In this document: positions 16,631 to 34,954 of the stretch, piece after piece
Numbering within the stretch: the stretch's first letter is position 1
Layout of the letters: each line of letters starts with the position of its first letter
Assembly: GCF_025751495.1 (NCBI RefSeq)
Contig: NZ_JAOWKZ010000003.1
Location: forward strand, 1-64,000
Reading direction: 5' to 3'
Length of the DNA: 64,000 bases
Source of the DNA: Albidovulum litorale
GTDB taxonomy: Bacteria; Pseudomonadota; Alphaproteobacteria; Rhodobacterales; Rhodobacteraceae
Program-made: the position numbers and the translations under genes
The notes under the pieces: generated by a model
Told to the model about the DNA's origin: nothing
The model's input: the letters and a program-made list of their open reading frames with translations, nothing else
Database searches by the model: none

Positions 16631-16697
16631 ATCAGGCTCCTGACGAATTTCATTCAGCCGGTGTATACTAGGTTCAGGGACGAAAACCAGGACGGAT

Positions 16698-17195: not shown

Positions 17196-17753
17196 TTGAT
17201 CCAGCGCAGCAAGGCTATGATCCGCCTGTTGAATGTTCGATCCGGGTTCCTTTTCACGAACGCCACTGACATCGAAGTGTTCAGGTGGGGCGTCAGGAAA
17301 AACATGAAATTTCTGATAGTTACAAGCTATTCACCAAATCGGCGCAGTCATGAGATCCGGAGAATATCGGCCCTGAGAGACCGCCTCCGGGCCGCCTGGC
17401 AGCAGGGGCAGTGCTCAGCCCCAACCGCATAACCCTCGAATACAACGAGAAAATCCGGCCGCGGCCGGATCGGGAGAACGCTTCCGCTGTGGCAAGTGGC
17501 GGAGGAAGTGCCCTTCCAACTGGACCGTCTCCTGTGACCCCTGAGGGAGCTCCGGCAATCTGCAGGGTTTAACGGAGTTCTAGGGAACATTTCGTAATTC
17601 GACGCCGGTTCACTGGGCAATTCGATGCTGCGCCCACTGTCCGAAGGGCGCCGCCGGCAACGCGCAGCGTCCCCAACACACTGACTTGAATAGGTTTTCT
17701 TTCTACGCATTCGTTGTCGTGCGACCATGGTGGTCGTTCGAAAGGAAACGGAA
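17196..17753. other. Intergenic stretch left of the defence operon, no gene recognised
   Basis: About 560 bases of mixed composition. No open frame has a ribosome site or recognisable product, and I see no tRNA fold. Segments with A/T runs near 17290-17330 and 17690-17710 could hold promoters for the small HTH gene. It may be decayed defence-island sequence. Confidence 0.4.
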
Positions 17754-17954
17754 ATGCGAGAAATGTGCCTCAGTCAAATCGAGCTGGCTGCCCGATGGAG
17801 AATCAGCCCAAGGACACTTGAGCGGTGGCGGTGGATCGGCGATGGGCCGCGCTTCATGAAGCTCGGCGGGCGGGTGATCTATCGCGTCGAAGATGTGCTG
17901 GCGTTCGAACAGCAAGAACTGCGAGATTTGGAGGAGATAAAGGCTGGGCGCTGA
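17754..17954 (+). CDS. Small AlpA/MerR-like helix-turn-helix DNA-binding protein
   Basis: 66 residues, preceded by AAAGGAAA at good spacing from the ATG at 17754. The motif L-A-A-R-W-R-I-S-P-R-T-L-E-R-W-R followed by G-P-R-F-M-K-L-G-G-R-V-I-Y-R is the winged HTH of AlpA/excisionase-type regulators (the HTH_17 family). Such proteins often accompany mobile islands and regulate excision or an adjacent operon. It lies about 290 bases upstream of the WYL regulator and points the same way. No integrase is near. Confidence 0.8.
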   Translation: MREMCLSQIELAARWRISPRTLERWRWIGDGPRFMKLGGRVIYRVEDVLAFEQQELRDLEEIKAGR

Positions 17955-18193
17955 AAACGGCGCTGGCATCGTCAGCCAAGCCCTGCGCGGCGACTATTTC
18001 TGACCTGCGCAGGGAAGTTACGTGCGCCGAATAGCCTGCAGTTCGCCACCACGCACCATTCCGCCCCTCCGGCCGAAGCCATAACCTCCATCCACATCTG
18101 CAGATAGAACCCCGTTCGAAAACAAGCACTTTACGCGCAATTTCGATTGCCCGCTTTCCTCCCGTCAGTTAGCGTCATCGAGAGCACAGAAAA

Positions 18194-18218
18194 TGGGCCC
18201 GCATAGTTTGCGGGTCCA
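18194..18218. promoter_or_regulatory. Dyad operator candidate for the BrxR-like regulator
   Basis: TGGGCCCGCA and TGCGGGTCCA form arms matching at nine of ten positions around a five-base centre (TAGTT). The dyad ends 22 bases before the TTG start at 18241. BrxR and CapW proteins bind inverted repeats in front of their own genes and repress the defence operon. Position and symmetry fit such a site. No T-run follows, so a terminator is unlikely. Confidence 0.55.
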
Positions 18219-18240
18219 CCGATCTGGCCCGGAGGTGATT

Positions 18241-19128
18241 TTGGAGAGCGACCGGTCGGAACTTCGCTGGGGTGTCGAGCAGCGCCTAGAGTTCATAGAG
18301 TTCCGCCTGTTCTGGGAGGGGCATGTGAACCGCAGCGATCTTATGGATCAGTTCGGGGTATCGGTGAACCAGGCGTCCACCGACCTGAATCGGTACATCG
18401 GCTTCGCCCCCGACAACATGCTCTACGACAAGAGCGCGCGAACCTATGTACGAGGCTCCGAGTTCAAGCCGCAGTTCCTCGAGCCTGACGCGAGCCGCTA
18501 CCTTGCACAGCTGCGATCGGTCGCCGACGGGATCCTCGACCGCGAGGACGCCTGGATCGCCAACCTCCCGCCCTACGCGGCCGCCCCTACGCCGGTTCGT
18601 GGGGTCAATCCGGCGACGCTTCGTTCTGTCGTTGGCGCCATCCGCCGGTCCGAGGCGATCGAGGTAAAGTACCAGTCCCTGTCCCGCCCCGAGCCGCGCT
18701 GGCGCTGGATCGCCCCCCATGCCATCGCGTTTGACGGTTTCCGCTGGCACACTCGGGCGTTCTGCCAAACTGACGATTGCTTCAAAGACTTCCTGTTGTC
18801 GCGGATGCTCGAGATCCGAGGCTCGGGCGAAAGCGACAAGTCGGCCGGCGACGATCACGACTGGCTTTTCGAGGTTACGCTGGAAGTCGGGCCCCACCCC
18901 GACCTCTCGGAAACACAAGCGAAGGTTATCGCGCTCGACTATGGCATGCGAGGCGGCAAGGCGAAAATCAAGGTGAGACGTGCGCTCCTCTACTATGCGC
19001 TCAAACGCCTCGGTCTAGATACCGCCCCCGAAGCGCGCACGCCCCAAGACCAGCAAATCGTGCTGATCAATCGCGACGAGATTTTCAGCGGCATTCGAGC
19101 AGATGGCGCTCCGGAGGGTTCGAAATGA
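18241..19128 (+). CDS. BrxR/CapW-like WYL-domain transcriptional regulator
   Basis: 295 residues in the BrxR order. A winged HTH (R-W-G-V-E-Q-R-L-E-F-I-E-F-R-L-F-W at 9-25; F-G-V-S-V-N-Q-A-S-T-D-L at 38-49) is followed by a WYL domain with R-W-R-W-I-A-P-H-A-I near 160 and F-R-W-H-T-R-A-F-C near 175, then a C-terminal WCX-like part. BrxR represses BREX operons and CapW represses CBASS operons, sensing an unknown ligand through WYL. GGAGG lies five bases before the TTG at 18241, and the upstream ATG would put the dyad inside the gene, so TTG is chosen. It is the first gene of the defence operon, 63 bases before the DUF262 gene. Confidence 0.85.
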   Translation: MESDRSELRWGVEQRLEFIEFRLFWEGHVNRSDLMDQFGVSVNQASTDLNRYIGFAPDNMLYDKSARTYVRGSEFKPQFLEPDASRYLAQLRSVADGILDREDAWIANLPPYAAAPTPVRGVNPATLRSVVGAIRRSEAIEVKYQSLSRPEPRWRWIAPHAIAFDGFRWHTRAFCQTDDCFKDFLLSRMLEIRGSGESDKSAGDDHDWLFEVTLEVGPHPDLSETQAKVIALDYGMRGGKAKIKVRRALLYYALKRLGLDTAPEARTPQDQQIVLINRDEIFSGIRADGAPEGSK

Positions 19129-19191
19129 AGCCTTCTTCGTACACCGCGCCCAGTTGCCAGAAGCCAGCAAGTTCATTTGAGGAGAACCAGA

Positions 19192-21114
19192 TTGGGTAAA
19201 CAAGCGGCATTCAAGACCAACCCGGTCAGCTTGGAGGAGCTTCTCCGTCAGTGCGGGAACGGCAAGATTCAGTTGCCGGATTTCCAGCGCAGTTGGGTTT
19301 GGGACGAGGAACGGATCAAGGGGCTGATCGCCTCGATCTCGCAGGCGTTTCCGGTCGGCGCCTTGATGACGCTCGAGGTGAAGCCTGGTGCGGCTGATAC
19401 CTTCGCACGCCGACCAATCCAGGGGGCGGATGCCGCAGTTGGCGACGACGCACCGGATCAGCTATTGCTGGATGGCCAGCAGCGCATGACCTCGCTTTAT
19501 CAGACCTGCTTACGCCGCGAGGTGGTGCAAACGGTCACGCCTCGCCTCAAGCTCGTGAAGCGCTGGTTTTACATCGATATTCGAAAAGCAATGAACCCGG
19601 CCGAGGATCGCGAAAACGCCATTGTCTCAGTACCCGAGGATCGGCGGATCAAGTCGGACTTCGACCGGAAGATCGACCTCGATCTCTCCACCCCGGAACT
19701 CGAATACCAAAATCTCATGTTCCCGCTGAACCAGGTTTTTGACTGGGACGAATGGCAAGATGGCTTCAACGAATACTGGCTGGAAAACGACCCGGAGACA
19801 CGCAAGCTCTTCAAGCCGTTCAAGGATGAGGTCCTTCAGAACTTCAAGGCGTACCAGCTGCCCGTAATCGCATTGAGCCCCGACACTTCCCACGAGGCCG
19901 TCTGTCTGGTCTTTGAGAAGGTGAATACCGGCGGCAAGCCGCTCGACGCATTCGAGCTTGTGACCGCGATGTACGCTGCCCGCGGCCATCGCCTGCGGGA
20001 CGATTGGCTCGGCGCCGACGGCCAACCGGGGCTCCAGACGAGACTTCAGCTCTTTGGGCGGGCGGCCGAACAGAAGTTCGGCGTGTTGGAAAAGGTCGCG
20101 GCAACAGATGTGCTCCAAGCCATCGCCCTCCTGCATGGGGTCGAAACTCGTGCGGCCGAAATTGCCGCCGGGCGCAAGGAGTCGGAGCTGTCCGCAGTTC
20201 GGGCCACGCGTCAGTCGCTCCTCGACCTGCCGCTGGAGGCCTACCTGAAGCACCGCGCTGCGGTCGAAGAAGGGTTCAAGACTGCGGCAAAGTTCCTCCG
20301 GCAGAACCACATCTATCGGGTCATCGATCTGCCCTATCAGGGCCAACTTGTCCCCTTTGCCGCGATCCTCGCCATCATCGGGCCTAGGTTCGACCACGCT
20401 GCAGTGAAAGACCAGCTTGCCCGCTGGTTCTGGTGCGGCATTTTTGGCGAACTCTATGGCTCGGCCATCGAGTCCCGATTTGCCAAGGACGTGCTCGAGG
20501 TGCCCGCATGGCTTGACGGTGGTCCCGAACCCAGCACGATCACCGATGGCCGCTTCCGCCCGGAGCGACTGCGCACCCTGCGCACCCGTCTGTCGGCTGC
20601 CTACAAGGGCATCCACGCCCTTCTGATGGCCGAAGGCGCGAGAGATCTCCGCTCCGGCCAGCACTTCAAGGACACCGTGTTCTTTGACGAATACGTCGAT
20701 ATCCACCACATCTTCCCGCAGGACTGGTGCAAGAAGCAGAAGATCGAACCGAAGGTCTTTGACACCGTCGTCAACAAGACGCCACTCAGCTACAAGACTA
20801 ACCGCATTCTTGGCGGCGTAGCACCATCGGTCTACCTGGAACGACTGGAAACAGGCGGAAAGGACAACCCGCCGATCGCCCGCGAAGCGCTTGACGATTA
20901 TCTGGGGTCCCACGGGCTGGATCCCTCTTTGCTGAGGGCGGATGACTTCGAGGGATTCATGGCGGATCGGGAGACGCGGCTCCTTGCCATGATTTCAAAG
21001 GCAACCGGGCATGCGATCGTCAGGGCAGATTCCGTGCCGGAGGAAGGCGAGGACGTTCTCCAGGACGACGAAGGCTTCGATGTTCCAAGCCCGGACGCCG
21101 AGAGGGCCGCCTGA
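19192..21114 (+). CDS. DUF262-HNH (GmrSD-like) nuclease
   Basis: About 640 residues. The N-terminal DUF262 domain has L-P-D-F-Q-R-S-W-V-W at 28-37 and L-L-L-D-G-Q-Q-R-M-T-S-L at 91-102; the D-G-Q-Q-R motif is the ParB-like NTP-handling site of GmrS. The C-terminal part has V-D-I-H-H-I-F-P around 502-509 and K-T-P-L-S-Y-K-T-N-R later, a His-Me/HNH nuclease signature as in GmrD. Fused GmrSD proteins cut modified phage DNA, and relatives (BrxU, SspE) cut under NTP control. The TTG at 19192 is chosen because GAGGAG lies seven bases upstream. The next gene starts directly after its stop. Here it is probably a cutting arm of the system. Confidence 0.83.
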   Translation: MGKQAAFKTNPVSLEELLRQCGNGKIQLPDFQRSWVWDEERIKGLIASISQAFPVGALMTLEVKPGAADTFARRPIQGADAAVGDDAPDQLLLDGQQRMTSLYQTCLRREVVQTVTPRLKLVKRWFYIDIRKAMNPAEDRENAIVSVPEDRRIKSDFDRKIDLDLSTPELEYQNLMFPLNQVFDWDEWQDGFNEYWLENDPETRKLFKPFKDEVLQNFKAYQLPVIALSPDTSHEAVCLVFEKVNTGGKPLDAFELVTAMYAARGHRLRDDWLGADGQPGLQTRLQLFGRAAEQKFGVLEKVAATDVLQAIALLHGVETRAAEIAAGRKESELSAVRATRQSLLDLPLEAYLKHRAAVEEGFKTAAKFLRQNHIYRVIDLPYQGQLVPFAAILAIIGPRFDHAAVKDQLARWFWCGIFGELYGSAIESRFAKDVLEVPAWLDGGPEPSTITDGRFRPERLRTLRTRLSAAYKGIHALLMAEGARDLRSGQHFKDTVFFDEYVDIHHIFPQDWCKKQKIEPKVFDTVVNKTPLSYKTNRILGGVAPSVYLERLETGGKDNPPIAREALDDYLGSHGLDPSLLRADDFEGFMADRETRLLAMISKATGHAIVRADSVPEEGEDVLQDDEGFDVPSPDAERAA

Positions 21115-24100
21115 ATGAAAGCGTTTGAGTTCGACCATCAATTGATCCGTGCTTACGAGCACTTTTCGCGTTCATTCAGCGCAATTCGGGCACCCGACCT
21201 GAAATCCGAGATCGATGCCCAGTACGACGCCGGAAAATTCTGGCCGGATGCCCTCTTGTCTCTGAACCCACGCTTCATGGCGGGGCCGACGGTCGATGAA
21301 CTCGTCGCCACGGGTGATCTCGACGACGGCACGGGCAAGGTTTTCCGGTTTGGCACTACGCCTCTTCGCTTTCACCGGCACCAAGCCGAGGCTATCGCTA
21401 AGGCGAAGCAAGGAAAGAGCTTTGTCGTCACTACCGGCACGGGTTCGGGGAAATCCCTGTGCTTCTTCGTGCCGGTTGTCGACGCAATCATCCGCGCGCG
21501 ACGCGCAGGAAAGCCGCGCCGCACGACGGCAATCATCGTTTACCCCATGAACGCACTGGCAAATAGCCAGTTGAAGGAGATCGACAAGTTCATCGCCGGT
21601 TCCGGTTTGCCCGATGAGCTCAAGCCGGTGGTCAAACGTTACACCGGTCAGGAAAGCCGTGAAGAGCGGGAGCGCATCGCAGCCAATCCGCCCGACATTC
21701 TCCTGACGAACTACATGATGGCAGAATTGCTTCTGACGCGTCAGGACGACCTGGACTCGAAAGTCATCTCGAACGCGTCCGGTCTCGAGTTCATCATTCT
21801 CGACGAACTCCATACCTATCGCGGGCGCCAAGGTGCCGATGTCGCGGTCCTCGTTCGACGCCTGCGGGACAGGTGCTCGCCGGACAAGGAGCCAATCTGC
21901 ATCGGAACCTCGGCAACGATGGCCTCCGAGGGATCGGACGAGAGCCGCGCGCTTGCTGTCGCGAAGGTAGCGTCTCGTCTGTTTGGCACCGACATTGGCC
22001 CGGACGCGGTCATCGACGAGTCCTTGCAGCGCGCGACCGATGACACCCTGAAGACCGAGCACGTCCTTGGCGCTTTGAAGACGGCCCTAACTCAGCCTTT
22101 GCCGGACGCACTCGATGACGAAACCCTAAAGCGCCATCCGCTCTCGGTGTGGGCCGAACTCGAACTCGGATTGGACGATGGGCTTGAGCTTCGCAGGAAG
22201 AAGCCTATCCCTTTCGAAGAAGCCGTTGAACAGCTTTCTCTGGCCAGTGAGGTCGATGCCGAAACCTGCCGAGACTATCTCGAAAAATTCCTGACCCGGG
22301 TAAGCCTGCCGGAGCATGAGCGCGGCGGCACGAAGGACGGAGCCTTTCTCGCCTTCAAACTCCACCGTTTCATCTCCGGTGCCGGTGAAGTCTTTACGAC
22401 GCTCACAGCCAGGCCGCGTCGGATCCTTCTTGAAGGGCAGCTCGAGGACCCCGAAGCACCCGGAAACCGCCTCTATCCCACGCGGTTCTGCCGAAATTGT
22501 GGCCAAGAATACCATGTCGTGACCAAGGTTGACGATGATGGGAGCTTGCGCTTTCTGCCCCGAAGCATCGACGACACACCGCTCGACACTGAAGAAGACG
22601 AAGTTGCAGGGTATCTCTGTCCGGTGACGCCCGGCGATACTGATTTTCAGTTCACTGGCGAGCTTGAGGGTTACCCCGAAAGCTGGCGAGAAGAGAAAAA
22701 CGGCATTGAACGGCTGAGAGGGTATCGCAAGAAGCGTATGCCGGTATCCTACGTCGTGGGTGCTGATGGTCGCCACGGAGCGGGCGGAAACGATTTCTGG
22801 TTCATCCCGGGAAAGTTTGCGTTCTGCCTGTGCTGCCATGACGAACCGACGCAGGGGATGCGAGAGCGCAGCAAGTTGGCGGGGCTGTCCGGCGAAGGGC
22901 GAAGCTCGGCAACAACCTTGCTGGTCGCCAGCGCCCTGGAGTGGATGAACAAACCTGGCAGCAGCGTACCCGAGACGAAGCGGAAGCTTCTAGGATTCAC
23001 GGATAACCGTCAGGATGCAGCCCTGCAGTCTGGCCATTTCAATGACTTCCTGTTCGTAAGCCTGTTGCGCGGAGCCATCCTTCGCGCGGTCATTTCTGCT
23101 GGCTCAGGTGGGCTCGCAGAAGACGAGTTCGGCCTGCAGGTGGTGAAGGCGCTCGGCTTTACTGCCGCCAACAAAGAGGCGCGACAGCATTGGCTGCTGG
23201 ATTCGAATGCTGGTGCCATCATTCGTGAAGATGCCCAGCGGTCGCTCGCAAAGGTTCTCGCCCATCGTGTCTGGACCGACCTGCGTCGCGGTTGGCGCTT
23301 CACCAACCCCAGCTTGTCTGTCCTGAACCTGATCGACGTGAATTTCCTCGGCCTCGAAGAAATCTCTGAAGATCGCGAGCGCTTCATGGCCATCCATCCA
23401 GCGCTGGGAGACCTCAGCCTCGAACAGCGGCAGGCAATTCTAAAGGCGATTTTGTCCGCGATGCTCGAGGGCCTGGCTGTTCAGACCGAAGCCTTGGACC
23501 TGACTGTCCTCGACGGCGTGGCCCAGAAATCCCGAATGCTGCTTCAGGCACCTTGGGCCATTGACCAAAAGGAAAACCCGCGAGCGCGGTCCTCGCTTGT
23601 CCTGCGCGCGGGCAGCAAGAACGTCGTCACGCTGCGTGAAGAACAAACGCTTCTTCGGGCAGGTCCCAATTCGCGGATCGCACGGCTCGTGAACCGGAAG
23701 TCCGTTCTCGGCACAAAGCTGAACAAGGATGAATACTACGAGTTCATGGAAGGGATGCTTGCCTTCCTGAGCGACGAAGGGCTGCTGGTTCCTGTCGAAC
23801 TCGATAGCGATGTGACGGGCTGGCGTCTGTCACCATCTGCGGTTCGGCTTGTGCCGGGACCGGCCCTCGATGATGAAACCCACCGCGGCAACCGATATTT
23901 CCACGATCTTTATACCGCGATTGCCAGTGATCTTGGCCACGGGCGCAGTTCCTACTGGGGGCTGGAGGGACGCGAGCACACGGCTCAGGTCTCACAGAAG
24001 CAGCGTGAATGGCGGGAATGGCGGTTCCGTTTCGAGCAGGACGACATGGACCATCTCGCGACCTCGGAGTACCGAACGGAAATTCGGGCGACTGGCGAGT

Positions 24101-26292
24101 CAGACCGATTCCTGCCCACGCTGTTCTGCTCTCCGACCATGGAACTCGGCGTTGATATTTCCGCCTTGAACGCCGTCTACCTGCGCAACGTACCTCCTAC
24201 GCCGGCGAATTACGCGCAGCGTGCTGGTCGTGCCGGTCGATCGGGTCAGGCCGCGGTTGTCGTGACCTACTGCGCCTCGGGGTCTCCGCATGACCAGTAT
24301 TTCTTTGAACGGCGCAACGATATGGTCGCCGGCGTCGTGCGGCCGCCAGCGCTCGACATAACCAATGAAGAGCTGGTCCGATCGCACCTGCATGCGGTGT
24401 GGCTGGCGGAAGCGAAACTGGCGCTTTCTCCCGACATCCCAGAGATCCTGGACCTTCACGGGGACAAATTCCCGCTGAAGGAAGACGTTCTGGAGGTCAT
24501 CTCGAAACCCGCTCTGGTCTCGCAGGCACGGGGACCGATGGCGCGTGTCTTGAAGCAGATTCTGGCGTCCGAGGGAGGGCAAACCCCGATCTGGATGGAC
24601 GACCCAGACGAGTTCGTTCTTTACACGGCCATGAATGCCCCAAAGGAGTTTGACCGCGCCTTCGACCGTTGGCGGGAGCTTTATAGTTCTGCCAGGACGC
24701 AATTGGCCGAGGCCAACAAGCGTTCGGAGATTACGGGGCTATCGGGAGCTGACCGGCGCAAGATCAAAGCCGCGCAAATGCAGGCCCAGGATCAGATCGC
24801 CATCCTCGAACAAGGCAAAGCCTCGAATGGCTCCGATTTCTATTCGTATCGGTATCTGGCAACAGAGGGCTTCCTGCCCGGGTACAACTTCCCGCGCCTG
24901 CCACTCTACGCGTTTGTTCCTGGCGAAGGTAAGACAGGGTCATTCCTGTCCAGAGCCCGCTTCCTCGCAATTTCCGAATTCGGCCCGCGCAGTCTGATCT
25001 ATCATGAGGGCCGCGCCTACCGGGTCATGAAAGCCAAACTGCCGCCCGAGGTGCGTCAGGGCGACGGATCGGAATTGGCGACCAAGGATATCTACATCTG
25101 CTCCAACTGTGGCGCATCGCATGAGGGCGAGGTCGAGCGGTGCCATGGGTGCAACAACCACATGGCGGGTGAGGTCCCCATCAAGAAGACCCTGCGCATC
25201 GACAACGTCGAGGCCGCCCCGACTGAGCGCATCACGGCGAATGATGAAGAGCGCGTTCGGCAGGGCTTTGACATCCAGACCGTCTTCTCCTGGCCGAAGA
25301 AGGATGGGCAGGTCCAAGTGACCAACGCCAAATTCGTCTGTGGCGAGACTTCCCTCTTGGCCCTGCAATACGCCAACAGCGCAGAAATCAGCCGACTGAA
25401 CAAGGGCTTGAAGCGCCGAAAGGACCAGACGGTCTTCGGTTTCCACATCGATCCGAGGTCCGGATACTGGGCGAAATCCGACGACGAGGACAGCGACACG
25501 GACGTCCCGCCGGACGTGGTCAAGCCGGTTCGCATTGTTCCGATCGTCCGCGATAGAAAGAATGCCCTGCTGTTTCGCTTCGAAAAGCCAGAGCAGTATG
25601 AGCCCGAGACAATCGCGACGGTTCAGCATGCGTTGCTGCGCGGAATTGAGGTGGTTTTCCAGTTGGAAGAGGGCGAAATCCTCGGTGAACCGCTGCCCGC
25701 GAGGGACAACCGTCGCGCAATCCTTGCCTACGAGGCAACGGAAGGCGGCGCCGGCGTGCTCACGCGCCTGATTGATGACGGAAAGGCAATCAACGAGGTG
25801 GCGAAAACCGCACTGGGTCTGATGCACTTCGAGAATGTGGATGCAGCGATTGCGGCGGGTGATGCGGATCTGTTGCAGGAGAAGAAAGACGGAAGCTGTG
25901 TTCGCGGCTGCTACCGTTGCCTGCTGTCCTACTTCAACCAACCGGACCATGAGCTGATCGACCGCTCCAGCCCGGAAGTGGCGCAATTCCTGATCGATCT
26001 TGCACGCGGCACAATTTCCCTTGCTGCGAAGCCGACCGCTGGAACCGTGCCATCACCATGGCTTGAGGCATTCAGCGCGGCAGGCATTCCCCAAGTCGAT
26101 ACGATGCCTGCGAGCTTTGGTGGGCGCGAATTCGAGTTCGTTTGGCGCGCTTTTGCGGTCGCCGCTACGACCGCTGACCTGACGGCAGAAGCTGAGGCAG
26201 ACGCGGTAAACAAGGGCTGGGTCGTTTTTGGATTGCCTTCGGCGCCACCGGAAGGACTGCCGGATGGCTTCATGAAGAATTTTGAAGGTTGA
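21115..26292 (+). CDS. DEAD/DEAH-type helicase with DUF1998 (fused DrmA-DrmB-like)
   Basis: 1725 residues. Walker A T-G-T-G-S-G-K-S is at 107-114, the DEAH-box variant D-E-L-H near 229, and G-T-S-A-T near 264. A Cys insertion (C-R-N-C-G near 460, C-L-C-C near 571) precedes the second RecA lobe, which carries R-A-G-R-A-G-R-S-G near 1038. A zinc ribbon C-S-N-C-G with C-H-G-C lies near 1330. The DUF1998 Cys cluster C-V-R-G-C-Y-R-C-L-L-S-Y sits near 1597. In DISARM these functions are split between DrmA (helicase) and DrmB (DUF1998); here one chain holds both. YprA/MrfA DNA-repair helicases have a similar but much shorter layout. It abuts its neighbours by zero and one bases, in the middle of the operon. 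Confidence 0.87.
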   Translation: MKAFEFDHQLIRAYEHFSRSFSAIRAPDLKSEIDAQYDAGKFWPDALLSLNPRFMAGPTVDELVATGDLDDGTGKVFRFGTTPLRFHRHQAEAIAKAKQGKSFVVTTGTGSGKSLCFFVPVVDAIIRARRAGKPRRTTAIIVYPMNALANSQLKEIDKFIAGSGLPDELKPVVKRYTGQESREERERIAANPPDILLTNYMMAELLLTRQDDLDSKVISNASGLEFIILDELHTYRGRQGADVAVLVRRLRDRCSPDKEPICIGTSATMASEGSDESRALAVAKVASRLFGTDIGPDAVIDESLQRATDDTLKTEHVLGALKTALTQPLPDALDDETLKRHPLSVWAELELGLDDGLELRRKKPIPFEEAVEQLSLASEVDAETCRDYLEKFLTRVSLPEHERGGTKDGAFLAFKLHRFISGAGEVFTTLTARPRRILLEGQLEDPEAPGNRLYPTRFCRNCGQEYHVVTKVDDDGSLRFLPRSIDDTPLDTEEDEVAGYLCPVTPGDTDFQFTGELEGYPESWREEKNGIERLRGYRKKRMPVSYVVGADGRHGAGGNDFWFIPGKFAFCLCCHDEPTQGMRERSKLAGLSGEGRSSATTLLVASALEWMNKPGSSVPETKRKLLGFTDNRQDAALQSGHFNDFLFVSLLRGAILRAVISAGSGGLAEDEFGLQVVKALGFTAANKEARQHWLLDSNAGAIIREDAQRSLAKVLAHRVWTDLRRGWRFTNPSLSVLNLIDVNFLGLEEISEDRERFMAIHPALGDLSLEQRQAILKAILSAMLEGLAVQTEALDLTVLDGVAQKSRMLLQAPWAIDQKENPRARSSLVLRAGSKNVVTLREEQTLLRAGPNSRIARLVNRKSVLGTKLNKDEYYEFMEGMLAFLSDEGLLVPVELDSDVTGWRLSPSAVRLVPGPALDDETHRGNRYFHDLYTAIASDLGHGRSSYWGLEGREHTAQVSQKQREWREWRFRFEQDDMDHLATSEYRTEIRATGESDRFLPTLFCSPTMELGVDISALNAVYLRNVPPTPANYAQRAGRAGRSGQAAVVVTYCASGSPHDQYFFERRNDMVAGVVRPPALDITNEELVRSHLHAVWLAEAKLALSPDIPEILDLHGDKFPLKEDVLEVISKPALVSQARGPMARVLKQILASEGGQTPIWMDDPDEFVLYTAMNAPKEFDRAFDRWRELYSSARTQLAEANKRSEITGLSGADRRKIKAAQMQAQDQIAILEQGKASNGSDFYSYRYLATEGFLPGYNFPRLPLYAFVPGEGKTGSFLSRARFLAISEFGPRSLIYHEGRAYRVMKAKLPPEVRQGDGSELATKDIYICSNCGASHEGEVERCHGCNNHMAGEVPIKKTLRIDNVEAAPTERITANDEERVRQGFDIQTVFSWPKKDGQVQVTNAKFVCGETSLLALQYANSAEISRLNKGLKRRKDQTVFGFHIDPRSGYWAKSDDEDSDTDVPPDVVKPVRIVPIVRDRKNALLFRFEKPEQYEPETIATVQHALLRGIEVVFQLEEGEILGEPLPARDNRRAILAYEATEGGAGVLTRLIDDGKAINEVAKTALGLMHFENVDAAIAAGDADLLQEKKDGSCVRGCYRCLLSYFNQPDHELIDRSSPEVAQFLIDLARGTISLAAKPTAGTVPSPWLEAFSAAGIPQVDTMPASFGGREFEFVWRAFAVAATTADLTAEAEADAVNKGWVVFGLPSAPPEGLPDGFMKNFEG

Positions 26293-26293
26293 T

Positions 26294-29065
26294 ATGACTG
26301 TGAATTTTACTCCTGGAGACCTTGTCAGAGCGCGCGGCCGTGAATGGGTTGCCTTGCCGACACCCGGTGAGGGCCTGCTTGCCCTGCGTCCTCTCTCGGG
26401 CAATGAAAACGACATCGTGGTTCTTGCTCCGGATCTGGAGCTTACACCGGTCGAAGCCGCTCGTTTCGACCTGCCTGACGACGCGCGCACGACAGTGCAG
26501 TCCAAGGCGGCCCTTCTTGCCGACGCGTTGCGACTGACACTCCGCCGAGGGGCAGGTCCGTTCCGATCTGCCGCACAGCTCGCGTTCGAACCTCGGACTT
26601 ACCAGTTGGTCCCGCTTCTCATGGCCCTTCGGCTTCAGGTCCCGCGGCTGTTGATTGCCGACGACGTTGGCATCGGCAAGACCATCGAAGCGGGTCTGAT
26701 CCTCCGCGAACTGATGGATCGCGGAGAAGTCGATGCGTTTTCGGTTCTCTGCCCTCCGCACCTCGTGGACCAGTGGATCACCGAATTGAACGATCGCTTC
26801 GGGATCGATGCTGTTGCCGTCACCTCCGGGACTGCCGCACGTCTGGAGCGCAACCTCCCATTGGCGCAAACCCTTTTCGATGCCTACCCCTTCACGGTGG
26901 TCAGCCTTGACTACATCAAAGCCGAGAAACGTCGGGATGGGTTCGCCAGGGCCTGTCCGGATTTCGTTATCGTCGATGAAGCACACGCCTGCGTCGGCAC
27001 GCACAAGGGAAAGCAGCAGCGTTTCGACCTACTCCAAGGCCTTGCACGCGATCCTGCGCGTCGGTTGATCCTGCTGACAGCCACGCCGCACTCCGGGGAC
27101 GAAGAAGCGTTCGCTCGGCTTCTGTCGCTAATCGATACGGAATTCGGGACCGTCAACTTCGACAACCAGAAGTACCGAGAGCGCTTGGTCAGGCACTATG
27201 TTCAGCGGCGGCGCGTTGACCTTGTCGAGGGCGACTGGGATGAGAACCGCTCCTTCCCCAAACACGAGACGACCGAATACTCGTATCGCCTGAACGACGA
27301 GCATCGGGCCTTCCAAGAGGCCGTACTTGATTACTGCTTCTCGGTCGTATCTCGGGCTGGAGACGCGCAAAAGGATCGCCGCCTCGCATTCTGGGGCACT
27401 CTGGCACTAATGCGTTGTGTCGGATCGTCACCAGCAGCCGCGATGAGCGCTTTGCGGAACCGCGCTTCCAATGAAGACGACCGCCTCGAGCCGCAGATTT
27501 ATGACGAAGATGGCGATGACGAAGACGCCGTCGACATTGAGCCAAATACTGTCTTCTCAAATGATCCCGCTCTCCAAGGGCTACTTGACGAGGCCAGCGA
27601 ACTTCTTGCGGTCGAAGATCCCAAACTGAACGCCCTGATCAAGGCCCTCAAACCCTTGATCAAAGACGGCGCCAACCCTGTCGTCTTCTGCCGTTACCTC
27701 GCCACGGCCGAACATGTGAAGGAAGGACTTCGTAAGGCCTTCCCCAAACTCAATATTCAGGCGGTAACGGGTGAATTGACGCCGGACGAACGTCGCGACC
27801 GCGTCGCGGAAATGGCGGCGGAAGAAAATGCCGCCACAGATCAGCGCATCCTTGTCGCCACGGACTGCCTGTCGGAGGGGATCAACCTTCAACAGCTGTT
27901 CGACACCGTGATCCACTACGACCTTTCCTGGAATCCGACGCGCCATCAACAGCGTGAAGGTCGCGTGGATCGTTTCGGACAGCCCGCCGAACTCGTTCGC
28001 TCGATCATGATGTTTTCGCCCGACAGCGCCATCGACGGTGCCGTGTTGGACGTCATTCTCCGCAAGGCTGAAGAAATCCGCAAGGCGACGGGCGTGACTG
28101 TGCCTCTCCCCGACGAGCGGGGACCGGTCACCGATGCGCTGATGGCGGCAATGATGCTTCGCCGTGGCGGTGGCAGCCACAAGCAGCTGACGCTGGACCT
28201 GCAAATCGGCGACGGTATCCAGGTGATGGAGACCCGCTGGCGCGATGCAAGCGAGAACGAAAAGCGGTCGCGCGCCCGGTTTGCACAAAACGCAATGAAG
28301 CCAAGTGAAGTCGCTCCTGAATGGGACAAGGTGAAGTCACTGCTTGGATCGCCAGCGGAAACGCTCGAATTCCTCGAGCGCGCGATGTCTCGCTTCGGGG
28401 TGCCCCTCGAGAAGAAGAAATCGCTGCAGTTCGCCCATGTGCACGCCCTTCAGGACAGCCTCAAGGAAAAGCTGGAGCAGCGTGGGCTGAAGGGCTCTCT
28501 GAAACTGGCCACGCAGGAACCGGTACCCTCTGGCGCTTCACTTCTGACAAGAACCCATCCGCTGACATCGTCCCTGGCAGAAAGCCTGCTTGAAGCCTCT
28601 CTTGACACCGAAGCGCTGCCGGATCTGGGCATCGGTCGTGTCGGGGCCTGGCCGAGTGCCGCCGTCACTCAGATGACGCGTGTCGCGCTCCTGCGTATTC
28701 GTTACAAGCTCACGGTTCATGCAAGGCGCGAGCGCCTTCTGCTGGCAGAGGAGGCCGCCCTCGTTGCCCTCGACAGCAACACGGTGATCGCCTCTGGCAG
28801 CGAGGCGCGCGCGCTGCTTGCCTCTCCCGCGACTGCTGATCTTGCGCCTGTTGCCCGCGACCGGATGATCAATACGGCGAAGGCGGCCCTTCCTGACCTG
28901 CTGGGCGGCCCGATTGCCGATTTCGTGCAAAAGCGTGCCGCGGAGCTGGTTGAAGACCACGCCCGTCTTCGTGCTGCCGCCGGTTCCGCGTCGCGTGTCA
29001 GTGTCGAGCCGATCATTCCCCCAGACGTCATCGGCCTCTTCGTTCTTGTTCCGGGGGAGGTGTAA
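26294..29065 (+). CDS. SNF2/HepA-like helicase (DrmD-like)
   Basis: 923 residues of a superfamily 2 Snf2-type translocase. Walker A-type A-D-D-V-G-I-G-K-T-I-E-A-G is at about 122-134, the DEAH box V-D-E-A-H at about 226, and L-T-A-T-P-H-S near 260. The C-lobe has E-G-I-N-L-Q and R-H-Q-Q-R-E-G-R-V-D-R-F-G-Q near 550. RapA/HepA and DISARM DrmD share this order. An acidic insertion (E-D-G-D-D-E-D near 405) lies between the lobes. Start ATG at 26294, one base after the previous stop, with GAAGG upstream; an in-frame TTG at 26282 is less likely. Role inferred: ATP-driven movement on invading DNA together with the DUF1998 helicase and the methylase. Confidence 0.88.
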   Translation: MTVNFTPGDLVRARGREWVALPTPGEGLLALRPLSGNENDIVVLAPDLELTPVEAARFDLPDDARTTVQSKAALLADALRLTLRRGAGPFRSAAQLAFEPRTYQLVPLLMALRLQVPRLLIADDVGIGKTIEAGLILRELMDRGEVDAFSVLCPPHLVDQWITELNDRFGIDAVAVTSGTAARLERNLPLAQTLFDAYPFTVVSLDYIKAEKRRDGFARACPDFVIVDEAHACVGTHKGKQQRFDLLQGLARDPARRLILLTATPHSGDEEAFARLLSLIDTEFGTVNFDNQKYRERLVRHYVQRRRVDLVEGDWDENRSFPKHETTEYSYRLNDEHRAFQEAVLDYCFSVVSRAGDAQKDRRLAFWGTLALMRCVGSSPAAAMSALRNRASNEDDRLEPQIYDEDGDDEDAVDIEPNTVFSNDPALQGLLDEASELLAVEDPKLNALIKALKPLIKDGANPVVFCRYLATAEHVKEGLRKAFPKLNIQAVTGELTPDERRDRVAEMAAEENAATDQRILVATDCLSEGINLQQLFDTVIHYDLSWNPTRHQQREGRVDRFGQPAELVRSIMMFSPDSAIDGAVLDVILRKAEEIRKATGVTVPLPDERGPVTDALMAAMMLRRGGGSHKQLTLDLQIGDGIQVMETRWRDASENEKRSRARFAQNAMKPSEVAPEWDKVKSLLGSPAETLEFLERAMSRFGVPLEKKKSLQFAHVHALQDSLKEKLEQRGLKGSLKLATQEPVPSGASLLTRTHPLTSSLAESLLEASLDTEALPDLGIGRVGAWPSAAVTQMTRVALLRIRYKLTVHARRERLLLAEEAALVALDSNTVIASGSEARALLASPATADLAPVARDRMINTAKAALPDLLGGPIADFVQKRAAELVEDHARLRAAAGSASRVSVEPIIPPDVIGLFVLVPGEV

Positions 29066-29067
29066 TC

Positions 29068-32000
29068 ATGGCCCGCAAACCAATCACCGATATGTCCGCG
29101 TGGCCGTCGCTGAGCCTCGAAGGCAACCTGATCGCGCCAGCGATGATCGCCAAGATCGATCAGCGCCAAGCACCCGAGCAATCCCCCGAGGAATACGGGG
29201 TTCGCAAAGGTCTGCAGATCCGCGAGGAAATCGCCACCGCCTTCCGCGTAGGCCAATCGCATTTCGATGCCTTTGCGAAGATCGAACACCCCTCGGCCGC
29301 CGCTACCTCACGCTTCATCGCCGACTTCTTCAAGGAAACCTTCGGGTACACCGATCTCGCGGTAGCAGCAGCACCGATCGCCTTGATCGCGTCCGACCGT
29401 GTGCCTGTCGTCGTCGTCCCGCCGTCCGAGCTGCTTGATCGCCGCAGCCCGACGCTCTCGACGGACAGGTCGCGCTCTCCGGCATTCGCCCTTCAAGATC
29501 ATCTGAATGATCGGGACGAGGCCCTTTGGGGTATCGTGACCAACGGGATGCAGTTGCGCCTCATGCGCGACAATGCCTCGCTGACCCGTCCGGCTTATAT
29601 CGAGGCCGATCTGGCGCAGATGTTCACAAACGAAGACATCGCGTCCTTCGCAGTGCTCTGGCTCCTGATCCACCGCACCCGCTTCGGCGCGGCAGATACC
29701 CCCGCCACCGATTGCCCCCTCGAACGCTGGCGCGATGCTGGTTCAAAGGAGGGCGAAGCCGCGCGTGATCGCCTGGCCGGTCAGGTCCAGCTGGCCCTCA
29801 AACTGCTCGGCTCGGGTTTTCTGGAGGCCAACCCCGACCTCGCCGCGAAACTTCACTCCGGCGAAGTGAACCTGACCGAATGGTTCAACGAACTCCTGCG
29901 TCTCGTCTATCGCCTGATCTTCCTCATGGTGGCCGAGGACCGGAACCTCCTTCACCCGGAAAAGGCCAAGCCCGAGGCCCGCGCCCTTTACGCCCAGGGC
30001 TATTCGCTCCAGTCGCTGCGCAAGCAATGCTACCGCGCCGCCACCTGGGACAAGCACCATGACCGCTACGAGGGGGTGAAGATCGTCTTCCGCGCCCTCA
30101 CGCATGGCCAGCCCGCCCTTGCGCTGCCCGCCCTCGGCGGCCTTTTTGCCGAGGACAGGCTGCCCCACCTCGAAACCGCCCGCCTGCGCAACCGCGCCTT
30201 CATGGAGGCGCTCTACCGCCTCTCCTGGCTCGCCGACAAGAACGGCATGGTCCCGGTCAACTGGCGCGCGATGGAGACCGAGGAACTGGGCTCGGTCTAC
30301 GAATCCCTCCTCGAACTGCAGCCGCAGCTGGGCGACGACGGCAAGACGCTGGTCTTCGCGTCCGAGGCCGCCGAGCAGAAGGGCAACCAGCGCAAGACCA
30401 CCGGCTCCTACTACACACCCGACAGCCTCGTTCAGGCGCTCTTGGACACCGCGCTCGACCCCGTGCTCGACAAGACCGAGGCCGAGGCGGATGATCCCGC
30501 CAAGGCGCTGCTGAAACTCTCGGTCATCGACCCCGCCTGCGGCTCGGGCCACTTCCTGCTGGCCGCCGCCCGCCGCATCGCCACGCGGCTTGCCCGCATC
30601 CGGGCCGAGGGCACGCCCTCGCTCGCCGATTTCCGCCATGCGCTGCGCGATGTGGCGCGTTGCTGCATTCATGGGGTGGACCGCAACCCGATGGCGGTGG
30701 AGCTGACCAAAGTCGCGCTCTGGATCGAGACGGTGGACCCGGGCCTTCCCCTCGGCTTCTTCGACGCGCAAATCCGCTGCGGCGATGCGCTGCTGGGGGT
30801 GTTCGACCTGCAGGTGCTGCAGGACGGCATTCCCGATGCCGCCTACAAGCCGCTGACCGGCGACGACAAGGAAACCGCGAAATACTACCTCAAGGCCAAT
30901 CGCGATGCGACGGCGGGGCAAGGCGGGTTCGACTTCGGCACCGGTCAGGCGTCGATGCCCGCGATGAAGCCGCTGGCGCTGGATTTCTCGGGCTTCCGCG
31001 ACTTGCCCGAGGATACGGTCGAGCAGATCGGCGCCAAGGCCAAGCGGTTCAAGGAACTGCGCAAGGGGCAGACCTTTGTCCGCGCCAAGGCGGCGGCGGA
31101 CCTCTATGTGGCGGCCTTCCTGCTGCCCAAGGTCGGTGGCGCACCGGCGGGGGCCTCGGCCCGCACCGTGCCGACGACAGAGGAACTGTGGATGGCCCTC
31201 AATCAGGGCAAGATGCGCCAGGCGATGGTCGAGGCGCCTAAGGCCGCCCGCAACGCCCGCGCCCTGCATTGGCCGTTGGAGTTTCCTGATGTGATGCAGC
31301 GCGGTGGGTTCGACGTGGTACTGGGCAATCCGCCTTGGGAGCGGATCAAGCTGCAGGAACAGGAGTTCTTTGCCTCCCGCTCGCCCGAGATCGCCAATGC
31401 GCCGAACAAGGCTGCGCGGGACAAGCTAATCAAGGCGTTAGATAAGGCGGCTCCCGGTACTCCAGATCGCGCTCTGTTTAGCGCCTTCACTGCGGCCAAG
31501 CGCGAGGCCGAGGCGACCAGCGAATTTGTCCGTGTGGCGGGCGAGGATGGCGGACGCTTTGCGCTGACCGGACGGGGCGACGTGAACACCTATGCCTTGT
31601 TCGCAGAGCTTTTCGCCAATCTTGCAAGGCAGCGGGCGGGAGTGATTGTACCCACCGGTATTGCCACCGATGCAACCACTGCGCCCTTCTTCGCGCATCT
31701 GGTGGGGGCGCGGCGGCTCGCAAAGCTCGTGGACTTCGAGAACTCCGCACCGATTTTTTCAGGCGTTCACCGCAGCTTTAAATTTGCCCTGCTCACCTTG
31801 GGCCGCGATGAAACCAACGCGCGTTTCGCGTTCTTCCTGACTGATCCGTCGCAACTTGCTGAACCAGAACGCAACTTTGCTCTCACACCTGACGATATCG
31901 CGGCGATCAATCCAAATACCAACACCGCGCCCGTGTTTCGCGCGCGCGCAGATGCGGAACTGACAGCCAAGATCTACGCAAGGGCCCCTGTTTTGATTGA

Positions 32001-32985
32001 TGAAGGGAAAGGCGCGTCTGGCAACCCTTGGGGCATTTCGTTCATGGCCATGTTCCACATGTCGAACGATTCCCATTTGTTTCGAACCGCTGAGCAGCTT
32101 AGCGCCGATGGTTTCGCCCGCGATGGAACAGACTGGCGAAATGGAAGCGACCACTTCGTCCCACTATATGAAGCGAAGATGATTTGGCACTTCGATCATC
32201 GGGCTTCTTCGTATCACACGCGCGGCAATGATCGAGGAAACCGTATCCTGCCGCCGACCACTGAAGAAGAGCATGAGGACATCGCGTTCGAAGCAGAGCC
32301 TTTCTACTGGGTGGCCGCAAAGGACTTGAACGGTGCGCTTCGGGATCGAAGCAACCAAGTCGAATGCCTGTTCGGATGGCGTGATGTTACAACCGCAATT
32401 GCAGAAAGGACCATGGTGCCATGTATCATTCCACGATACGGCACCGGGGATACTTTTCTCTTAGCCTTCACAGAAAAGCCGGCCGAATTGCTGCTCTGTC
32501 TCTATGCAAACTGGGCGTCTTTGGCTTTTGACTACGCCACAAGGCAAAAGATCGCATACGTCCATCTGAAATATAACATAGTCAAGCAGTTGCCGACGAT
32601 TGCGCCCGACTTTTACACTGAAGTTCATCGCGCCTTCATCACCCCGAAGGTGCTGGAACTCACCTACACCTCGCACAGTCTCGCCCCCTTCGCCCGCGAT
32701 CTGGGCCATGACGGCCCGCCCTTCGCCTGGGACGAGGACCGCCGCGCGCTCCTGCGCGCCGATCTCGACGCCTTCTACGCCCGCGCCTACGGCCTGACCC
32801 GCGACGAGCTGCGCTACATCCTCGACCCCGCCGACGTGAAGGGCCCCGACTACCCCTCGGAAACCTTCCGCGTCCTCAAGGAAAAGGAAATCCGCACCCA
32901 CGGCGAATACCGAACCCGCCGCCTCGTCCTCGAAGCCTGGGACCGCATGGAAGCGAACGGCGAATTCACGGCGATGGGGATGTGA
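29068..32985 (+). CDS. Eco57I/PglX-type adenine-N6 DNA methyltransferase (DrmMI-like)
   Basis: 1305 residues. SAM-binding motif I D-P-A-C-G-S-G-H-F is at about 488-496 and the catalytic N-P-P-W at about 754-757, preceded by V-V-L-G. The long N-terminus and C-terminus match PglX (BREX), DrmMI (DISARM class 1) and Eco57I-type fused enzymes. I see no clear PD-(D/E)xK endonuclease motif in the first 300 residues, so cutting is probably by other subunits. A block at about 31420-32640 (residues about 785-1190) uses noticeably more A/T-ending codons than the flanks. It coincides with where the target recognition domain should be, suggesting recombination of specificity. GGGGGAGG precedes the ATG; spacing to the neighbours is two and three bases. 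Confidence 0.9.
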   Translation: MARKPITDMSAWPSLSLEGNLIAPAMIAKIDQRQAPEQSPEEYGVRKGLQIREEIATAFRVGQSHFDAFAKIEHPSAAATSRFIADFFKETFGYTDLAVAAAPIALIASDRVPVVVVPPSELLDRRSPTLSTDRSRSPAFALQDHLNDRDEALWGIVTNGMQLRLMRDNASLTRPAYIEADLAQMFTNEDIASFAVLWLLIHRTRFGAADTPATDCPLERWRDAGSKEGEAARDRLAGQVQLALKLLGSGFLEANPDLAAKLHSGEVNLTEWFNELLRLVYRLIFLMVAEDRNLLHPEKAKPEARALYAQGYSLQSLRKQCYRAATWDKHHDRYEGVKIVFRALTHGQPALALPALGGLFAEDRLPHLETARLRNRAFMEALYRLSWLADKNGMVPVNWRAMETEELGSVYESLLELQPQLGDDGKTLVFASEAAEQKGNQRKTTGSYYTPDSLVQALLDTALDPVLDKTEAEADDPAKALLKLSVIDPACGSGHFLLAAARRIATRLARIRAEGTPSLADFRHALRDVARCCIHGVDRNPMAVELTKVALWIETVDPGLPLGFFDAQIRCGDALLGVFDLQVLQDGIPDAAYKPLTGDDKETAKYYLKANRDATAGQGGFDFGTGQASMPAMKPLALDFSGFRDLPEDTVEQIGAKAKRFKELRKGQTFVRAKAAADLYVAAFLLPKVGGAPAGASARTVPTTEELWMALNQGKMRQAMVEAPKAARNARALHWPLEFPDVMQRGGFDVVLGNPPWERIKLQEQEFFASRSPEIANAPNKAARDKLIKALDKAAPGTPDRALFSAFTAAKREAEATSEFVRVAGEDGGRFALTGRGDVNTYALFAELFANLARQRAGVIVPTGIATDATTAPFFAHLVGARRLAKLVDFENSAPIFSGVHRSFKFALLTLGRDETNARFAFFLTDPSQLAEPERNFALTPDDIAAINPNTNTAPVFRARADAELTAKIYARAPVLIDEGKGASGNPWGISFMAMFHMSNDSHLFRTAEQLSADGFARDGTDWRNGSDHFVPLYEAKMIWHFDHRASSYHTRGNDRGNRILPPTTEEEHEDIAFEAEPFYWVAAKDLNGALRDRSNQVECLFGWRDVTTAIAERTMVPCIIPRYGTGDTFLLAFTEKPAELLLCLYANWASLAFDYATRQKIAYVHLKYNIVKQLPTIAPDFYTEVHRAFITPKVLELTYTSHSLAPFARDLGHDGPPFAWDEDRRALLRADLDAFYARAYGLTRDELRYILDPADVKGPDYPSETFRVLKEKEIRTHGEYRTRRLVLEAWDRMEANGEFTAMGM

Positions 32986-32988
32986 GCG

Positions 32989-34143
32989 ATGGCGGTCATC
33001 GACCCCGTCGTCAACGGTCGCGTGGCCGACTTCATCCGGGGCGCGGTCCAGTCGATCTTCGACTCGCGCTTCGACTGGACGCCGGACGCCGAGTCCATCC
33101 TCGTGCTGATGCGCGAGGGTGGCATGTCGCCCGAGCAGGAGCGACGCTTTCTCCCCTATTTCGATCTGTTCGTCGAACAGGCCCGGCAGGGCGAAGTTAG
33201 CGGTTTCAGCCCGCGGGTCGACGATGAAACCTTCGTCGATTACCCGCCGAAGTTCGACCTCGACGCACTACTGACACCGCCATCGTCGCCCGACGCTCAA
33301 AAGGACCTGTTCGACGGAACTGGTCCAAGAACCGAGTCCGAGCGCGCCCTGATCGACCAGCTGATCGCGGCGACAAAGCTCTATGACAGCAGCGAGGCGA
33401 TCCAGGAGCTGTTCGCCTTCACGGTCCGCCTTCGCGAGTTCGCCCCTTTCAACGCGATGCTGCTGCACATCCAGAAGCCGGGCCTCACGCATGCCGCGAC
33501 AGCGCATGACTGGTGGCACAGGTTCGGCCGCGTGCCGAAAAAGAGCGCACGGCCGCTCCTGGTGCTGCGCATGAAGGGCCCGGTCGACTTCGTGTTCGAC
33601 GTGCAGGATACCGAGGGCAAGGACCTGCCGATCGATGCGTTCTCCTTCCCGACCTTCGGCAATCTGAGCGACAACCGCTTCGCCGAGTTCATGCGAGCCG
33701 TCGGCAAGGAGAAGATCGATCTCGTCCCGCTCGACGCAGGAGACGGTCAGGCAGGCTGGATCCGACTGCTCGCCCGCGCGAAGAACGACAAGGGCAAGAA
33801 CGTCTACCAGCTTGCCTACAACCGGAATCACGCCGCACCGACGCGCTTCGTGACTGTCGCCCACGAACTGGCGCACCTGTACCTCGGCCACCTCGGAGCC
33901 GATAACGGACGCCGTGTTCCGGATCGGCGTAACACGCCCCACGCGCTGATGGAAGTGGAAGCCGAGATGGCGGCATACCTGGTGGCGATGCGCAACGGAC
34001 TCACGCCGAGGAGCGAAAGCTACCTGTCGAACTACAAAGGGGCCTTTGAGGACCTGAACCTCTACGCGGTGACGAGAACCGCGAATGCCGTGGAAACCGC
34101 GATGGGCATCTCCGCCCAGAAGCTCTGGAACGAGAAGGCATGA
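32989..34143 (+). CDS. ArdC/ImmA-IrrE-like metallopeptidase
   Basis: 384 residues. The middle part has F-N-A-M-L-L-H-I-Q-K-P-G, then W-H-R-F-G-R-V-P-K-K-S-A-R-P, the pattern of the ArdC N-terminal ssDNA-binding domain. After it comes the zincin motif V-A-H-E-L-A-H-L-Y-L-G-H-L-G at about 290-303 with a downstream Glu (E-V-E-A-E-M-A-A-Y-L-V) as third zinc ligand, as in ImmA/IrrE. ArdC blocks restriction. ImmA cleaves repressors in phage or mobile-element switches. Inside a restriction-like operon it could process a regulator or protect DNA. Three bases separate it from the methylase stop, so it belongs to the operon. Confidence 0.82.
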   Translation: MAVIDPVVNGRVADFIRGAVQSIFDSRFDWTPDAESILVLMREGGMSPEQERRFLPYFDLFVEQARQGEVSGFSPRVDDETFVDYPPKFDLDALLTPPSSPDAQKDLFDGTGPRTESERALIDQLIAATKLYDSSEAIQELFAFTVRLREFAPFNAMLLHIQKPGLTHAATAHDWWHRFGRVPKKSARPLLVLRMKGPVDFVFDVQDTEGKDLPIDAFSFPTFGNLSDNRFAEFMRAVGKEKIDLVPLDAGDGQAGWIRLLARAKNDKGKNVYQLAYNRNHAAPTRFVTVAHELAHLYLGHLGADNGRRVPDRRNTPHALMEVEAEMAAYLVAMRNGLTPRSESYLSNYKGAFEDLNLYAVTRTANAVETAMGISAQKLWNEKA

Positions 34144-34147
34144 GGGA

Positions 34148-34924
34148 ATGATCGAGACGCCCCAATCCTTCGTGACCCGCCAGGAATGCGACAAGGTCAC
34201 CTACCAGAACGGCTTCCGGCGCCCCCATGGCGAATTCGATGGCTGGCAGCGGTACAGTTCGACGACCGCGCAGGGGTCGATCTGGCTCGCTCGGGACACT
34301 TCCGGTCCGTGGCTCCTCGCCCTGGATCACGCCGGGGTCATTGCTGAGATCGGGATTGAGGCGTCAGATGCCCCAGGACCAGGCCTCGCACGGTTCCGGT
34401 TTGCCTCGCTGGCACAGCTTTATGGCGTGATGCCAAGAGTTTACGAGCTTGCCGCAAGCCTTCCCGACGCACCACTTCAGGAGTTTCTTCACCGCACAAA
34501 GAACTTGCCGAAGACGACAGAGGCGGAACGCCTTGTGGTCCAGCGTGTCGGCCAGAACATTTTTCGTGAGCGTCTGATCAAATACTGGCGGGGGCGATGC
34601 CCTCTGACCGGGATTGTCGACAAGCCGCTTCTCCGTGCCTCTCACATCAAGCCATGGCGCGACTGTGAAAACGACGCAGAGCGTCTGGATGTCCATAACG
34701 GCCTGCTTCTGTCGGCTCTTTGGGATGCCGTTTTCGATGGCGGTCTGGTTACCTTCGGCGATGACGGCATCCCTGTCTTTTCGGAGAACCTCAGCGAGCA
34801 GGCGCGTGCGCGGCTTTATTTTGATCGGCCAGTCGCTTTGACGGACAGGCATCGAGTCTTCTTGGAGTGGCACCGGACGAAGGTATTCGACGTCAAAGCG
34901 TCTGACGCCCCGCCTGCCGATTGA
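34148..34924 (+). CDS. HNH endonuclease
   Basis: 258 residues. The N-terminal half is an unassigned beta-rich domain (S-S-T-T-A-Q-G-S-I-W-L-A). The C-terminal half has C-P-L-T-G near 151-155, A-S-H-I-K-P-W at 164-170 and H-N-G-L-L-L-S-A-L-W-D-A-V-F-D at 183-197. This is the HNH_2 signature found in many restriction-associated nucleases. It is the last gene of the defence operon, four bases after the peptidase gene. In the absence of the DISARM phospholipase-D protein DrmC it is a plausible nuclease. Its stop faces the prophage fibre gene across only 30 bases. Confidence 0.85.
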   Translation: MIETPQSFVTRQECDKVTYQNGFRRPHGEFDGWQRYSSTTAQGSIWLARDTSGPWLLALDHAGVIAEIGIEASDAPGPGLARFRFASLAQLYGVMPRVYELAASLPDAPLQEFLHRTKNLPKTTEAERLVVQRVGQNIFRERLIKYWRGRCPLTGIVDKPLLRASHIKPWRDCENDAERLDVHNGLLLSALWDAVFDGGLVTFGDDGIPVFSENLSEQARARLYFDRPVALTDRHRVFLEWHRTKVFDVKASDAPPAD

Positions 34925-34954
34925 GACGCGATAGGTCGAAAGCTGGTCGGCTGG

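Follow-up and report, generated by a model that had tools for sequence, protein, structure and literature searches.

A probable ARMADA Type I variant in Albidovulum litorale with a decayed Vsr-like helicase domain and a separate HNH endonuclease gene

The closest described relatives of the operon presented here are the ARMADA systems. In the accessible part of the preprint that describes them (Bell et al. 2025; PMC12458937), the Type I operon begins with a YprA helicase gene, which is followed by a BrxHII-like and then a PglX-like gene. The Type I helicase carries BrxA-like, MarR-like and coiled-coil insertions, and its C-terminal Vsr domain is described as predicted active, as is that of Type II. 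The published experiments in that part of the text, including those on anti-phage activity, are for Type II only, and no experimental mechanism for Type I was found in the portions of the literature that were searched. Druantia Types I and II also have a DruE-type helicase, in which the Vsr domain is inactivated according to the same portion of the preprint (PMC12458937).

The DNA analysed here (the window) is a stretch of 64,000 nucleotides from A. litorale (contig NZ_JAOWKZ010000003.1, positions 1 to 64,000), in which seven open reading frames (ORFs) on the + strand at 18193-34924 were all confirmed to be real. The protein families were checked by Pfam, PADLOC, NCBIfam and PDB sequence searches of the seven proteins; the PADLOC models date from 2023 and are older than the description of ARMADA. 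The features of the operon are as follows:

18193-19128, + strand: WYL-domain transcriptional regulator of the CapW/BrxR type (Pfam WYL)
19177-21114, + strand: DUF262/GmrSD_N protein with a C-terminal HHIFP (HNH) motif, an optional accessory (TTG start; Pfam GmrSD_N E=3e-27)
21115-26292, + strand: YprA-family (DUF1998/MZB) helicase, assigned to ARMADA Type I (Pfam DEAD, Helicase_C and MZB)
25948-26289, + strand: predicted Vsr-like nuclease domain without its catalytic motif, at the C-terminal end of the helicase (YprA residues 1612-1725; alignment, hhalign and AlphaFold model)
26282-29065, + strand: SNF2/RapA-like translocase, BrxHII/DrmD-like (PADLOC model PDLC02853, labelled DpdE, E=5e-193 over the full length; also DrmD and BrxHII)
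29068-32985, + strand: PglX/DrmMI-like adenine methyltransferase (Pfam Eco57I; PADLOC DrmMI E=2e-75)
31340-32605, + strand: variable, presumably target-recognition, region of the methyltransferase (approximately residues 758-1180; breaks in DNA similarity and per-bin protein identity)
32989-34143, + strand: M78/ImmA-like metallopeptidase (HELAH), occupant of a variable slot (Pfam Peptidase_M78 E=4e-6)
34148-34924, + strand: HNH endonuclease, last gene and fixed in this lineage (Pfam HNH_2; PDB match to VcaM4I, 6yex, E=5e-18)

From the DUF262 gene onward the gaps between ORFs are 0, -11, 2, 3 and 4 nt. The overlap of 11 nt is between the helicase ORF and the SNF2 ORF, which has a TTG start and an in-frame ATG 12 nt further on. 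The HNH protein begins at 34148 (MIET...); a longer ORF from 34085 would overlap the peptidase. The operon has a G+C content of 61%, against 66-67% on both flanks. Searches with Pfam, PADLOC and NCBIfam detected no PglZ, BrxC, DrmC or PLD domain among the seven operon proteins.

An earlier note on this DNA had described seven genes of these families on one strand, tightly packed from the second gene, and had placed the helicase and DUF1998 functions on one chain. It had also reported drmC and the BREX hallmarks pglZ and brxC as absent, proposed a BREX-style regulator and viewed the whole as a self-contained, DISARM-related defence-type operon. All of this is borne out by the ORFs and family matches: DEAD, Helicase_C and MZB lie on a single 1725-aa chain, and the WYL protein matches CapW (9c5g, E=6e-67) and BrxR (7t8k, E=8e-43) in the PDB. 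Its DUF262-HNH protein stands in part, as the GmrSD_N domain is matched in Pfam whereas the C-terminal HNH has no Pfam match and is read from a VDIHHIFP motif.

The helicase-SNF2-methylase order (21115-32985) matches the published layout of ARMADA Type I. The best reading of these sequence comparisons is that the core belongs to this already described class, and that the new part is a variant with a decayed Vsr domain, an HNH gene and exchange sites. DUF1998 is fused into the helicase and a Vsr-type domain follows at the C-terminus, as in Type I, but the Vsr domain of the window is decayed. A domain in this state is not predicted to be active, but ARMADA types are defined by clade and operon in the accessible text (PMC12458937), and the locus was therefore filed as a variant and not as a typical member. 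Over 1691 residues the helicase shares 38% identity with a Deinococcus radiodurans plasmid protein, where the operon order is the same, and the SNF2 protein is 42% identical over its full length to a D. radiodurans protein. Walker motifs are intact in both YprA and SNF2, by inspection. In a small tree with outgroups the helicase groups with those of operons with the ARMADA I layout, the outgroup branches being very long. The 2023 PADLOC models label the helicase DruE and the SNF2 protein DpdE. Druantia Types I and II are not known to have the SNF2-methylase-HNH set of the window.

The E. coli ARMADA II and Druantia III proteins align with those of the operon only in parts in pairwise comparisons, and this includes the alignment of the window helicase with ArmC of ARMADA Type II. 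Type II has homologous SNF2, methylase and YprA proteins, but its order is SNF2-methylase-YprA with an ArmD helicase, whereas in the window YprA comes first and there is no ArmD. On the E. coli plasmid pTEM135_005215 (L146 and L149), Zorya II, Druantia III and an ARMADA II-like set are found consecutively.

Alignment of the helicase tails showed that a DGPHH-type motif is conserved in Deinococcus, Actinomycetota, cyanobacteria and some Proteobacteria, and that the DGxxH motif and the surrounding loop are missing in the lineage of the window. The motif-less and intact tails are homologous (hhalign 96.2%; each of ten column shuffles gave less than 1%). The window tail was also modelled with AlphaFold (mean pLDDT 73.5), and the best PDB match to the model is the catalytic domain of the homing endonuclease I-Bth0305I (3r3p; Z=7.4, rmsd 2.8, 75 residues, where a Z below 8 is suggestive only), which has a Vsr-like fold. 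The alignments and the model show a Vsr-type domain that keeps its predicted fold and from which the catalytic motif is gone. In the ARMADA I loci L109, L110 and L134 the Vsr domain is intact or partly degenerate, and McrBC-type genes follow instead of HNH.

The distribution of these features was surveyed in 80 loci from named genomes and in further loci from whole-genome searches and plasmids. More than 60 loci show the order YprA-SNF2-methylase-(slot)-HNH, too many for a chance arrangement. A decayed Vsr domain occurs with HNH in 68 informative loci; these are 67 loci and L014, in which the HNH gene lies further downstream, after a DUF262 gene. Where the Vsr motif is intact, HNH is present in 0 of 15 informative loci. 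Five loci have a decayed domain without HNH: L055 ends inside DUF262, L059 is cut off, L128 is uninformative, with an IS21 insertion after the methylase, and L134 and L141, which lie outside the main clade, have degenerate tails and no HNH. The decayed-HNH loci belong mainly to one clade (SH-aLRT 97). A plasmid of Hydrogenimonas combines a decayed tail with a homologous HNH gene and is likely an independent second case of decay plus HNH; its helicase pairs (SH-aLRT 89) with an intact, HNH-less one, inside an otherwise intact set (95). The link between decayed Vsr and HNH cannot reach significance, since it comprises only two informative independent contrasts. The main text of the ARMADA paper, as far as it was accessible, says nothing, for Type I, of an HNH gene, of DUF262 or M78, or of an exchange slot, and the supplement may record the HNH link (PMC12458937).

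The HNH gene follows the methylase, directly or past the slot, in 56 of the 58 survey loci whose sequence continues past the methylase, and the two exceptions end at the locus edge. Where the slot is empty, as in several loci, the methylase and HNH frames overlap by a few bases. HNH distances track YprA distances (Mantel r=0.93, 0 of 2000 permutations). Among close relatives the median identity is 81% for HNH against 96% for SNF2, so that HNH, too, is sometimes exchanged. The S/H/N/D catalytic residues are invariant in an alignment of 46 homologues, and the AlphaFold model matches 6yex with Z=8.3 over the HNH domain, Z values of 7-8 being suggestive only. PADLOC HNH and Type II restriction-enzyme models also match the protein. 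It shares the HNH catalytic domain with the VcaM4I-type endonucleases but differs in its N-terminal ~105 residues, which have no clear fold match; the best non-HNH candidate, the T4 MotA DNA-binding domain (Z=6.8), was tied with unrelated folds and was rejected.

The earlier view of HNH as a probable nuclease is kept. The proposal that it replaces DrmC had to be changed, as HNH would instead stand in for the Vsr domain that has decayed at the C-terminal end of the helicase chain. Similarly, the seven-gene set proposed as a unit is retained for YprA-SNF2-methylase-HNH and not for DUF262, which is optional, or the M78 peptidase, which is one of many slot occupants. The note had named, as grounds for refuting its proposal, the finding that DUF262, peptidase and HNH genes usually lie elsewhere; this holds for the DUF262 and peptidase genes but not for HNH.

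Two sites of exchange are evident when the window is compared with loci whose helicases are more than 90% identical to its own, as DNA similarity breaks within the methylase (approximately 31340-32605) and in the methylase-HNH interval (32990-34148). Against close relatives, similarity in the methylase ends at 31340-32082 and returns at 32527-32707. Protein identity in this variable stretch is approximately 15-80% and is lowest at residues 981-1180; in the N-terminal 500 residues it is 88-100%, and the DPACGSG and NPPW motifs are intact. The slot between methylase and HNH differs among loci with cores more than 90% identical. Its commonest occupant is an ATPase-like DUF2326 protein of approximately 655 aa, and others are the M78 peptidase, an HD protein with a 169-aa partner, CBS/EAD7 proteins, a UDG-like protein, unnamed proteins of 247 and 262 aa and, in Croceicoccus, a 900-aa protein annotated as ATP-binding; some loci have none. 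The M78 peptidase is one occupant of a variable slot, and it had no match among PDB sequences. The window and L060 have the slot in common and differ in the recognition region, and L069 and L052 have the recognition region in common and differ in the slot; the two sites swap independently.

The DUF262-HNH gene is an optional add-on. Only in the closest relatives does it separate WYL from YprA; it is missing in the close relative G013, and elsewhere lies directly upstream of YprA (P. marcusii), inside the slot (L014) or after HNH (L038 and L106). The WYL gene is often present at the surveyed loci; a scan for inverted repeats upstream of it in the window returned only short pairs and no clear operator.

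Immediately downstream of the operon is a prophage late/structural region on the - strand (34955-61381) with genes for a tail fibre, a GTA-type tail protein, tape measure, head, portal, terminase and ParB-like/DNA methylases. The terminase gene is sporadic in the genus. The region 17496-36500 of the window, which holds the operon and part of the tail-fibre gene, has 92-95% DNA identity with Seohaeicola (L031) and Paracoccus siganidrum (L058), and that the operon and this part of the tail-fibre gene are common to both suggests that the operon moved together with phage DNA. The helicase had no match in phage genome records, and no empty site was seen in the relatives searched with the left-flank gene. 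A small AlpA/excisionase-like helix-turn-helix reading frame was seen by eye just upstream of the operon (~17753-17953, + strand), and further left (15157-16798) are an IS240-type transposase and a cytosine DNA methylase fragment. An IMG/VR contig of 12,994 bases (L154) is approximately 90% identical to 16673-24197 of the window, joined to pieces of the window prophage, and may be an assembly chimera.

We read the operon as an ARMADA Type I subtype whose helicase tail has ceded DNA cleavage to a separate HNH protein, and give this a probability of roughly two in three. The WYL repressor would keep the operon down, as judged from CapW/BrxR homology, and the PglX-like methylase, by homology with DrmMI and PglX, would mark host DNA, the site being determined by its recognition region, which can be swapped. 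The SNF2 translocase and YprA helicase may then load on unmarked or replicating phage DNA, as ARMADA II and DISARM would suggest. The Vsr-like domain, its catalytic motif lost, may persist as a structural or docking element, and cutting would be done by the HNH endonuclease, whose catalytic residues are intact and whose gene is co-inherited and fixed in last position. The slot gene, in the window the M78 peptidase, is from its turnover a candidate exchangeable accessory with a second sensor or effector activity, and the DUF262-HNH protein may be an optional type IV-like module that covers phages with modified DNA.

The main rival, which we consider unlikely, is that the helicases and methylase alone form the ARMADA core and that HNH, the slot gene and DUF262 are embedded, independent defences sharing a promoter and directed against other phages. 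The turnover of slot occupants among loci with near-identical cores and the several positions or absence of DUF262 are as it predicts, and an HNH of the modification-dependent VcaM4I type is able to act alone. Against it stand the near-fixation of HNH, the overlap of its start with the methylase stop at loci with an empty slot, its co-variation with YprA, and its absence from all informative loci with an intact Vsr motif. It is considerably less probable that the helicases have acquired an ordinary restriction-modification unit, HNH with the methylase, in which HNH cuts unmarked sites and the helicases merely enhance this. HNH does adjoin a methylase with a swapping recognition region, and the restriction-enzyme models match it, but in L031 and in L054, a Paracoccus denitrificans locus, the recognition region is less than ~50% identical to that of the window and HNH is ~94% identical, and such a mismatch would be dangerous for a site-matched pair. 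Least probable of all is the class 1 DISARM or DISARM/BREX hybrid first proposed: the SNF2 and methylase proteins do match the DrmD and DrmMI models, but the DrmD score, 291 bits, falls well short of the 610 that NCBIfam requires, the helicase obtains much better scores with DruE-type models than with DrmA models and is homologous over its full length to those of ARMADA I-layout operons, and in place of the separate DrmA and DrmB and the PLD nuclease DrmC of DISARM the window has a fused DUF1998 and none of DrmC, PglZ or BrxC among its seven proteins.

With the preferred reading, in which HNH has taken over cleavage, goes a wider proposal to which we would give even odds: that Alphaproteobacteria commonly carry this form as a separate subtype of ARMADA I, with a dead fused nuclease, an HNH protein in its stead and independent exchange of the recognition region and slot, so that a conserved translocase core is refitted with new specificities and effectors. 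The lineage would then represent a natural separation of translocase core from nuclease, in which HNH could be removed with the helicase left as it is, and in which the decayed Vsr domain could be compared with its intact relatives. The exchange slot would also be a place to seek unknown defence proteins by position alone, candidates being the DUF2326-type ATPase and the CBS, UDG-like and 247- and 262-aa proteins.
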